This document shows positions 3,529 through 47,770 of a DNA stretch of 64,000 nt, in pieces. The DNA lies in the NCBI RefSeq assembly GCF_000515275.1, contig NZ_KI911560.1:682001-746000 (forward strand), read 5' to 3'. Origin of the DNA: Methylophilus sp. 5 (GTDB lineage: Bacteria > Pseudomonadota > Gammaproteobacteria > Burkholderiales > Methylophilaceae). The notes under the pieces are model-generated. The model searched no databases, was not told the DNA's origin, and worked only from the letters and a program-made list of their open reading frames with translations. Every line of letters begins with the position of its first letter. The first letter of the stretch is position 1. The position numbers and the translations under genes were made by a program.

Positions 3529-4248
3529 GAAAGTAATTCTTTGATAAGCATTACTCGACATTCCAGCACTTATTGATTGTTATGGCGATTCGTTTCGCCT
3601 TGTTGGCGAGTCACTTTCTGGTGCTTGCCCCTCAGAAAGTAACCAAAGAAGAGGGCACCCAGCCATCACGGCCTAAAGGCTCCCTTGCGTTGCTCAACAA
3701 AATAAGCCGGTCACGAAACTCGCCCTGACAAGCCACACAAAACGTGGCTTGTTGCGGAGCTCAGACAGTCGCTCCCTCTACTCTTATTTTGTTTCCGCTA
3801 CTCAGCGTGATGGAATGGGATTCTTCTCATTTAAGTAGCAGCGAAGAAGTTTGGACGGTTCAAAACCAGATTCTTTTATTAAAGTTATCGATGGTTGCAG
3901 TCGCATGGTGTTCGGGGTCCCCATCTGCCGCGCCGAGTAGCGCAGGCAAAATAAGGACAAAGGGAGCGACTGTTCGAATCCCGCGGTGGCCTGCGGGGTG
4001 TGCAGGCCGCTAGGATGAGTTTCGTGACCGCTTATTTTGACGAGCAACGCAGGAATCAAGCGGAAGCTGGGGTGCATTTCTTTTGGTTACTTATTCTTTG
4101 GGCAAGCAAAGAAAAGTAACTCGCCAAAAAGGCGAAAAGAAACCTGCCAAACAACCACAAAATCCGGGTGGGCACCTATGCCCAGCCTACGCCGGAATGA
4201 CGAAGATAGGTTGAGCATACGAAATAGATCGATAAAAGAATGACCTTC
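3529..4248. repeat. Long palindromic dispersed repeat, copy A (cloverleaf type)
   Basis: First of four related non-coding elements. Outer ends are short inverted repeats (GAAAGTAATTCTTT at 3529; AAAGAATGACCTTC at 4248). The core is 3593-4137. Arms of about 100 bp (3593-3695 with 4042-4137, starting TTTCGCC...GGCGAAA) would pair as a closing stem. Inside lie three hairpins: left module 3698-3791 (basal stem CAAAATAAG/CTTATTTTG), apical hairpin 3796-3942 (CGCTACTC/GAGTAGCG) and right module 3947-4039 (again CAAAATAAG/CTTATTTTG). Junction spacers are only 2-4 nt. It fills the gap between the convergent PEP-CTERM and panB genes. Short reading frames inside recur as fragments in other copies and are not genes. 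Confidence 0.9.
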
Positions 4249-9071: not shown

Positions 9072-9763
9072 AGAAATTAATTCTTTTTTGGCATTAGCAA
9101 AAAATGCTGACATCTTCGCACTAACAACTTTCCTTTTTCGCCTTGCTGGCGAGTCACTTTCTGATGCTTGCCCCTCAGAAAGTAACCAAAGAAGAGGGCA
9201 CCCAGCCATCACGGCCTGCGGCTCCCTTGCGTTGCTCAACAAAGTGGGCGTCCATCGAAACTCGCCCTAGCGGCTTGCACAGCCCGCAAGCCACCGCGGA
9301 ACTCGAACAGACGATGGCCGACTACCCCCACTTCGTCTCCGCTACTCAGCGTGATGGAATGGGATTCATCTCGCCAAACTCCCATAGTAGAAGTTTGGGC
9401 GATTTAAAAACCAGATTCTTTTTTCTTTCTTCAATTTGCCAATGGTTGCGGTCGCATGGTGTTCAGGGTCCCCATCTGCCGCGCCGAGCAACGCAGGATT
9501 GGCGGGAGTTGTCGGCAAGCAACTGTTTGAGCTCCGTAGGAGCGAGTTTTTGATTGCCGCCCGACAAACCGAGTAGCACAGGAATCAAGCGGAAGCTGGG
9601 GTGCATTTCTTTTGGTTACTTATTCTTTGGGCAAGCAAAGAAAAGTAACTCGCTGAAAAAGCGAAAAACAACCTAACAAACAACCACAAACCTCGCCCAC
9701 CCACGCCGGAATGACGAAGGTGGATTGCATATACGGAAGTAGAAGAGGAAAGAATGACTTTCC
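9072..9763. repeat. Long palindromic dispersed repeat, copy B
   Basis: Second copy; core 9137-9666 between TTTCGCC and GCGAAA. The left module (9242-9333) has basal stem AAGTGGG/CCCACTT, replacing the CAAAATAAG stem of copy A. The right module is a third version, closed by TTGTCGG/CCGACAA (9509-9515 with 9561-9567). The 12-mers flanking the right module (GAGCAACGCAGG, GAGTAGCACAGG) are in the opposite order to copies A and D. The right outer end AAAGAATGACTTTC is near 9750-9763; the left outer end near 9072 is weak. It lies between the convergent murI and zinc-finger genes. Confidence 0.88.
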
Positions 9764-27060: not shown

Positions 27061-27714
27061 GAAAGTAATTCTTAAGAAACTGGAGATTGGCGGATTAATG
27101 TAATGATTTTTTCGCCTTGTTGGCGAGTTACTTTTTTTGCTTGCCCCAAAAAAGTAACCAAAAAGAGGGCACCCAGCCATCACGGCCTACGGCTCCCTTG
27201 CGTTGCTCAAATTAGGACTTTCGTCCGATGCTTTGCTGGACTTAGGCATAAGCCGGTCACGAAACTCGCCCTGACAAGCCACACACTTCGTGGCTTGTTG
27301 CGGAACTCGGACAGTCGCTCCCTCTTCTCTTATTTTGTCTCCGCTACTCAGCGTGATGGAATGGGATTTATCTCGCCAAACTAGCATCTCAAAGGTTTGG
27401 ACCGTACAAAAAAGAAATTCTTTTATTCAATTCACTAACGGTTGCAGTCGCATGGTGTTCGGGGTCCCCATCTGACGCGCCGAGCAACGCAGGGTTGACG
27501 GGAGTTGTCGGCCATCGGCTGTCCGAATCCCGCAGCAGCTCACGATTTGTGTGAGCTGCCAGGTTGAGTTTCGATGGCCGCCCGACAAGCCGAGTAGCAC
27601 AGGAATCAAGCGGAAGCTGGGGTGCATTTCTTTTGGTTACTTGTTCTTTGGGCAAGCAAAGAAAAGTAACTCGCTGAAAAAGCGAAAAGAAACGCCACCT
27701 AAAGAATCACCTTC
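27061..27714. repeat. Long palindromic dispersed repeat, copy C
   Basis: Third copy; core 27110-27687. The left module is the CAAAATAAG type with about 34 extra bases containing its own small hairpin (GGACTTTCGTCC). The right module is the TTGTCGG type, as in copy B, with the flanking 12-mers in the same swapped order. The outer ends are GAAAGTAATTCTT (27061) and AAAGAATCACCTTCT (to 27714). The right end overlaps the last codons and stop of lnt, and the left end is 4 nt after the RND stop, so the element completely fills this convergent gap. Confidence 0.88.
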
Positions 27715-47052: not shown

Positions 47053-47770
47053 TTTCGCCTCTCGGCGAGTCACTTTCTGATGCTTGCCCCTCAGAAAGTA
47101 ACCAAAGAAGAGGGCACCCAGCCATCACGGCCTTCGGCTTCCTTGCGTTGCTCAACAAAGTGGGCGGCCATCGAAACTCGCCCTAGCAGCTTGCAAAAAA
47201 CGCAAGCCACCGCGGAACTCGAACAGCCGATGGCCGACTACCCCCACTTCGTCTCCGCTACTCAGCGTAATGGAATGGGATTCTTCTCATTTAAGTAGCA
47301 GCACCCCAGTTTGGACGGTTCAAAAACCAGATTCTTTTTATTCAGTTCGCTTTCGGTGGCAGTCGCATGGTGTTCGGGGCCCCCATCTGCCGCGCCGAGT
47401 AGCGTAGGCAAAGTGGGAGGTTTCGGCCATCGGCTGTCCGAGCTCCGCAACAAGCCACGTTGTGTGTGGCTTGTCAGGGCGAGTTTCGATGGACGCCCAC
47501 TTTGACGAGCAACGCAGGAATCAAGCGGAAGCTGGGGTGCATTTCTTTTGGTTACTTATTCTTTGGGCAAGCAAAGAAAAGTAACTCGCTGTAAAAGCGA
47601 AAAGAAACCTCACAAACAACCATAAACGCGTGGGCATCAATGCCCACTACGACTACGCTGACCAATCTGAACAATCTTTTATTGCTATCTCGCCCTACCA
47701 GGACTCCGGCCTACGCCGGAATAACGAAGGTTAACGCTCAATGAGCGCCAAGCAATCAAAGAATGACTTT
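47053..47770. repeat. Long palindromic dispersed repeat, copy D (cloverleaf type)
   Basis: Fourth copy; core 47053-47602. Both side modules are closed by AAGTGGG/CCCACTT (left 47158-47164 with 47243-47249; right 47411-47417 with 47497-47503), so both arms changed together relative to copy A. The inner 12-mers are in the copy A order. The right tail (to AAAGAATGACTTT at about 47758-47770) includes CCTACGCCGGAATAACGA as in A and B, plus a GTGGGCATCAATGCCCAC hairpin. No left outer repeat is seen; the argJ terminator stands there. The right end is 1 nt from the arfB stop. Confidence 0.9.

Follow-up and report, generated by a model that had tools for sequence, protein, structure and literature searches.

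The window, the whole stretch of 64,000 nucleotides of Methylophilus sp. 5 analysed here, covers bases 682001-746000 of its own genome (G000), a single contig of 3.03 Mb, and holds four copies, A to D, of a large repeat, all on the plus strand. The core of copy A (3593..4139) runs from TTTCGCC to GGCGAAAAG, is homologous to B, C, and D, and was delimited by comparing ends across the copies of the own genome. Copies B (9136..9667) and C (27110..27693) are defined by sequence match to the family, while copy D (47053..47608) starts directly behind the T-run of a terminator-like hairpin at a site that is empty in eight of 21 related genomes. An earlier note, made from the sequence alone, had placed four copies at these positions, and they are confirmed, with pairwise identities of 74-81% across 588-671 aligned columns. 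Its count of four is correct for the window and understates the genome as a whole: copy A matches the own genome in 97 pieces, grouped into 31 places, of which 29 were taken as loci (L001-L029) and the remaining two are fragmentary. Six open reading frames lie within A-D; none has a Pfam family above cut-off, so they were rejected as genes, and the statement that no coding capacity is kept between copies stands.

The outer limits originally given for copy A (3529 and 4248) correspond to a degenerate motif that is present beside only some copies. This motif, GAAAGTAATTCTTTG (3529-3543) and AAAGAATGACCTTC (4229-4248), brackets these copies outside the core, and its form GAARGTMATTCTTTG, considered as the true border, was rejected with three matches in the whole genome. 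A second repeat, GGCCTACGCCGGAAT(A/G)ACG (47700-47730), is present to the right of several copies and resembles dRS3-type repeats.

The 27 near-complete copies in the own genome have TTTCGCC as their first letters, and their last letters are GGCGAAA or a variant, for example AGCGAAA. The interior comprises two mirrored arms of about 230 bp each and an asymmetric centre of about 145 bp; in copy A this centre (3795..3940, plus strand) was used for reading copy orientation, and in relatives gene cargo sits between the arms. The inverted-repeat make-up of copy A is seen in the match of 3574-3807 to 4157-3931 (69% identity), and terminal inverted repeats, the mark of both MITEs and mobile insertion cassettes, are thus present. 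Arms in the own genome are never more than about 750 bp apart among the matches listed. The right tail of copy A also has a GTAG-tagged, REP-like hairpin (4166..4190, minus strand), which was found in 17 rows, corresponding to 16 places in the own genome, all of them in right tails of elements. The core of copy A has a minimum free energy of -271.5, compared to -171.6 (sd 7.4) in 60 dinucleotide shuffles (z -13.5). A strand difference in whole-copy free energy was considered and rejected: the minus strand is lower in 19 of 27 copies, which is opposite to the shuffle trend of copy A, and the pair count does not bear it out.

Copy A had been drawn as a single four-way cloverleaf around a closing stem of about 100 bp, and the presence of compensatory changes was proposed as its test. 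Such changes are present in the arm hairpins and absent from the closing stem. The apical hairpin of the left arm (3722..3755, plus strand) and its mirrored counterpart in the right arm (3983..4016, minus strand) belong to a set of 50 hairpins extracted from 27 copies, 34 of them distinct and all of equal length. Eight of the ten stem pairs have changed on both sides; 77 cells have changed on both sides against a shuffled mean of 30.7, and covariation is 0.595 against 0.329, with neither value reached in any of 500 shuffles. Two counts are not above the shuffles: the pairs with changes on both sides (8) and the further pair types (9), reached by 260 and 500 of 500, respectively. The hairpin stems change in blocks and have no strand preference in their pairs (G-T 11, A-C 13 among 1,762 cells). 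When the halves of the left hairpin are swapped between copies, the energy rises from -28.8 to -23.3 and none of 200 swaps equals the native pairing (25 of 27 copies usable), whereas the ends that form the closing stem pair equally well natively and swapped (-85.8 in both cases, with 97 of 200 swaps at least as good). Among the copies of the own genome, left-arm types combine freely with right-arm types. Since the hairpin halves are specific to their own copy and the ends are freely exchangeable, the local hairpins are the maintained structures and the closing stem looks like a by-product of two mirrored ends. Because compensatory changes are absent from that stem, the single four-way cloverleaf is not supported, and the outer part of the drawn stem makes better sense as two pseudoknots, one per end.

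The left-end pseudoknot of copy A (3609..3659, plus strand) has a stem 1 formed by ACTTTCTG and CAGAAAGT, and its loop, TTGCCC, pairs with GGGCACC. At the other end, the hairpin GGGTGCATTTCTTTTGGTTACTTATTCTTTGGGCAAGCAAAGAAAAGTAACTC (4070..4121, plus strand) is matched at 686064-686120 of the own genome by R1, a covariance model of the end built from 53 rows; as in the right ends of the own genome generally, stem 1 is kept and the second stem is only short. Among the 27 left ends, 17 have TTGCCC with GGGCACC, nine have TTGTCC with GGACGAC, and one has TTGCCC with no partner found. Loop and partner therefore agree in 26 of 27, the same covariation that is seen across genera.

A scan of a genome collection with an end-hairpin pattern gave at least 120 stretches, of which 80 (L097-L176) were studied, and so bore out the earlier expectation that relatives with a GGTTACTT...GCAAGCAAAG motif exist elsewhere. 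The pattern fixed only one C among the loop and the letters behind the A-rich strand, so these positions, with that one exception, are a fair test of the second stem. The contiguous helix between loop and downstream strand is at least four pairs long in 70 of 82 sequences, three in six, and two in six, and the mean of 3.91 compares with a maximum of 3.05 in 2000 reshufflings. Among 70 distinct relatives, the two top column pairs by corrected mutual information are both stem-2 pairs, and one of them is Watson-Crick in 70 of 70 (GC 37, CG 29, TA 4). Covariation of the end structure (53 of the 70 distinct rows) is 0.162, against 0.036 when shuffled and at most 0.025 when slid, and no shuffle of 500 reaches it; the pair count and the pair-type count are not above the shuffles (reached by 462 and 51 of 500, respectively). 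The outer ends thus show what defines an H-type pseudoknot, a hairpin loop that pairs with a downstream strand, with covariation between the two. The stem-1 columns are invariant by construction with one exception, and this variable pair (CA 25, TA 18, AC 12, GC 11, GA 4) is standard or wobble in 66 of 70 sequences on the outward strand but only in 29 of 70 on the inward strand. The outward strand is thus apparently the folding one, and it seems to fold either as RNA or as single-stranded DNA. Its order is stem-2 strand, U-rich strand, stem 1, and loop. Pseudoknots with a U-A-U triple helix, such as that of telomerase RNA, have this order, and the end pseudoknot may be of that kind.

The element is widely distributed and frequent throughout the genus. 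Copy A has matches in 29 of 61 genomes (the own genome and 60 relatives), and within the genus the number of matches per genome ranges from none (G006, G018) to 41. In an even sample of the phylum, 299 genomes with the own genome among them, model R1 matches 46 genomes and 31 of 181 genera; its copy numbers per genome are lower bounds because at most 19 candidates were scored in each. Relatives found by the pattern scan include Aeromonas, Lysobacter, Luteimonas, Dyella, Methylomonas, Halopseudomonas, Burkholderia, Silvimonas, Actinobacillus, Aggregatibacter, Psychromonas, and Desulfobacterales, among others, and 14 records of a plasmid collection, with 9-12% of the query covered, add Ilyobacter and Pasteurella. 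The 54-nt end has no match in E. coli genomes. Carriage by phages was considered and rejected, as copy A has no phage match and the exact end motif has no match in viral contigs. A literature search of open-licence PMC text found no description of the element in the titles and abstracts listed.

Sites A-D are occupied in all five species compared (G000, G002, G009, G013, and G020). A contig end truncates copy D of G020, and copy A of that genome has a non-homologous left flank; the flanks are otherwise 79-91% identical. The sequence of the element does not follow the site: mean likeness is 0.802 for the same site in different species (36 pairs), 0.812 for different sites in one species (27 pairs), and 0.790 for different sites in different species (108 pairs), with copy D of G020 left out. 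Two same-site values stand apart, A in G000 and G002 (0.898) and D in G009 and G013 (0.945). Left-end types and left-arm types combine in all four possible ways in the own genome (8, 8, 7, and 4 copies). Such a relation of site and sequence would be expected from gene conversion among dispersed copies or from repeated replacement. Site D was also compared in 21 relatives, of which 14 could be judged. It is filled in four (G002, G009, G013, G020) and empty in eight (G003, G004, G005, G008, G010, G012, G014, G021), and in G007 an element lies about 100 bp beyond it. The left border of the site is clear and the right one is not, and no target-site duplication was seen there. In G017 the site (L079) has a 75-bp solo hairpin, TTTTCGCCTCTC...GAGAGGCGAAA, in place of the full element.

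Orientation relative to replication was counted for full central-region matches, with dnaA as the origin and dif as the terminus. Copies are directed against fork movement in 26 of 27 cases in the own genome (p 4e-7), 22 of 24 in G013, and nine of 11 in G005 (p 0.065), while G021 (five of nine) and G008 (none of two) have no bias. Short fragments, several of them contrary, were dropped before the count (two of 29 rows in G000, 11 of 35 in G013, and five of 16 in G005), and G000 and G013 are not independent because they share sites. By heuristic gene calls, the neighbouring genes are convergent at 13 of 26 copies in the own genome, codirectional at 13, and divergent at none (copy D was assigned manually, and one further copy has no call). 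The fork rule is followed by 12 of the 13 copies between convergent genes, so gene direction alone does not explain the bias. In this lineage, the bias suggests, without proving it, a link between insertion or survival and the passing replication fork.

Copies A-D have no gene cargo, and none was seen in the window's genus, but some relatives do enclose genes. An end-profile scan of 85 loci (L092-L176) found facing pairs of ends in 26; four pairs in three Methylomonas loci are 1.8-2.1 kb apart and the others 97-675 bp, a range that leaves out a 5.6-kb pair in L130 spanning two elements. In L122, a single self-pairing hairpin may have been taken for a pair, and at loci without a facing pair the partner may have diverged or lie outside the stretch. 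Comparison of the arms adds Pseudomonas abyssi (L152), with arms 2.0 kb apart, and, more weakly, Aeromonas dhakensis (L163), with arms 3.3 kb apart. Two further loci, L272 and L273, were picked from the phylum search for wide pair spacing. Passenger genes were found between the ends in L102, L118, L152, L163, L175, L272, and L273. The cargo of L152 is the PD-T7-4 defence system (PADLOC E 5.5e-75; DUF4145), and that of L163 and L175 consists of unknown proteins. In L272 (G326:C1:1169800-1175000), inverted arms that are 97.5% identical over 282 bp enclose a PAAR protein, a Tae4 amidase effector of type VI secretion, and two small neighbours, while the arms of L273 (87.5% over 256 bp) enclose a HEPN protein and two unknowns; PADLOC gave only a weak match (E 0.0095) for the cargo of these two loci. 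L102 and L118 each carry a RAYT gene and an unknown protein, as determined by a Pfam run on the L102 copy, to which the L118 copy is 90% identical. These two loci have the same gene context in two Methylomonas genomes. Their flanks are 78-83% identical, their arms 79-85%, and the RAYT block 90%, yet the stretches of about 640 and 710 bp from left arm to RAYT are unrelated, a difference that can be read from the sequences as cassette exchange at one site. Part of the cargo could be ordinary genes caught between two elements.

Copies A-D belong to a bacterial family of DNA elements that is widespread and apparently has no name. With a little better than even confidence, they are taken to be cargo-less copies of a family of chromosomal cassettes that are bounded by inverted repeats and have no transposase. 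This reading is supported by the covariation of ends and arms, the versions that carry genes, the different genes between homologous arms at one site, the exchange of sequence, the empty and filled states of site D, and the orientation of copies in G000 and G013; the earlier note did not include the end pseudoknots, the gene-carrying relatives, the exchange between fixed sites, or the link to TwoAYGGAY discussed below. The ends, acting as a folded single strand, would be recognised by an enzyme supplied in trans, which would have made the original insertions in a manner coupled to replication. Recombination between the many similar arms would then homogenise the copies and swap the content between them. 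Against the cassette interpretation, no mobilising enzyme was found in a search for Y1 transposases and no target duplication was seen. The absence of the exact end motif from viral contigs and of copy A from phages is unusual for a mobile element, the window's genus has shown no gene cargo, and the orientation bias is weaker in G005 and absent in G021 and G008, with sites shared between G000 and G013. The main rival, which has a real but clearly lesser chance of being correct, is that the element functions as RNA: the outward strand, in transcripts reading outward, would fold into a triple-helix pseudoknot and protect or end the mRNA of the neighbouring or enclosed gene. The variable stem-1 pair, which obeys G-U rules outward and not inward, the absence of copies between divergent genes, and the filing of TwoAYGGAY and Bp1_684 as RNAs in Rfam are all consistent with such a role. 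However, the arm pairs are without strand preference, stem 2 changes almost without G-U steps, and the exchange of content at sites and the carriage of genes also speak against it.

It is improbable that the copies are ordinary MITEs or REP-type elements moved by a RAYT (Y1) transposase. The GTAG-tagged hairpin in the right tail at 16 places and the RAYT genes within two Methylomonas elements point in that direction. Elements of the IS200/IS605 type transpose as single strands on the lagging strand, which the orientation bias, uneven across the five genomes counted, would also fit. Nevertheless, the own genome has about 31 copies and no match to the Y1 transposase family PF01797 at E 0.001; none of 25 Y1 loci in related genomes has an element match, though at five of them, in sister genomes, the REP lies beside the RAYT gene; and G013 has copies of the element and no match to the REP pattern. 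RAYT was accordingly rejected as the mover. Nor was a transposase-bearing copy, the refuting case named in the earlier note, seen in the own genome: the listed arms lie close together, and PF01797, the family searched for, has no match. Least probable, and doubtful, is a host-serving element of chromosome structure, polarised by replichore and selected at fixed intergenic sites. The polarity in G000 and G013, the occupation of sites A-D in five of five species, and the absence of the exact motif from viral contigs would be expected of such an element, but matches within one genus vary from none to 41, polarity is not general, and relatives carry genes. A more specific form of the cassette interpretation is offered tentatively, as a possibility that may well be wrong: the cassettes would have triple-helix pseudoknot ends, a trans-acting factor would recognise these at the fork in the form of folded single strands, and the many empty copies would be docking sites that exchange genes for defence and inter-bacterial competition by recombination. 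If the ends are recognition sites, the family would offer defence and type VI effector genes a way to relocate on chromosomes without a transposase of their own. The covarying pseudoknot makes the mechanism testable.

The family shares features with several known systems. REPs and REPINs are likewise dispersed intergenic palindromes, and a GTAG-tagged hairpin is found in the tail of the element; however, REPs are described as 20-40 bp in length (PMC3733652, in the part available) and REPINs go with a RAYT in the genome, while the core here is about 550 bp and the own genome has no PF01797 match. The original description of a large structured repeat unlike REP, ERIC, or short MITEs is apt. Mobile insertion cassettes (MICs) consist of inverted repeats around passenger genes without a transposase, as do the cargo-bearing members of this family. 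In MICs the ends correspond to those of a partner insertion sequence; the search for Y1 transposases turned up no such partner in the present case, where the ends are pseudoknots.

The PIT or BoxC repeats (TMECO) are also intergenic, present in many genomes, and formed of pyrimidine-purine-purine hairpins (PMC4666352, in the part available), and the present family resembles them in all three respects. According to the same text, BoxC is G/C-rich, is 37 nt long, shows no strand bias, and has no tie to mobile elements, whereas the motif described here forms the end of a 550-bp element. A purine third strand that mirrors the stem over at least seven positions characterises PIT and BoxC; the sampled arms of the own genome, where the mirror is imperfect, reach five, and the mirror of eight in 82 of 106 arms equals the number of pattern-selected arms, in which it is eight by construction.

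An Rfam family as the explanation of the window copies was rejected, since neither the whole window nor copy A had a match, and the covariance model of TwoAYGGAY (RF01731) does not match copy A even at E 1. Fifty of the 85 loci L092-L176 were also run against Rfam. Bp1_684, a Burkholderia sRNA (RF02421) that differs in not being found in the window, covers the flank outside the end hairpins in the Burkholderia loci L094, L124, and L132, and lies on both sides in L124 and L132. The remaining matches in these loci are riboswitches, leaders, and sRNAs of neighbouring genes. A partial TwoAYGGAY match in L097 lies 3.5 kb from the motif. TwoAYGGAY has been described only as an RNA motif without an assigned function, and its descriptions, in the parts available (PMC2864571, PMC4333381), include no mirrored pair, end pseudoknots, or cargo. 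In Psychromonas L126, both arms (45-208 and 571-736) are full-length matches to its model (1-168), directly inside the end hairpins, and partial matches lie in or beside the arms in Pseudoalteromonas L095 and Aeromonas L163. An orphan Rfam RNA and a Burkholderia sRNA candidate thereby become parts of a single element whose ends and arms are defined and which, in relatives, carries cargo.
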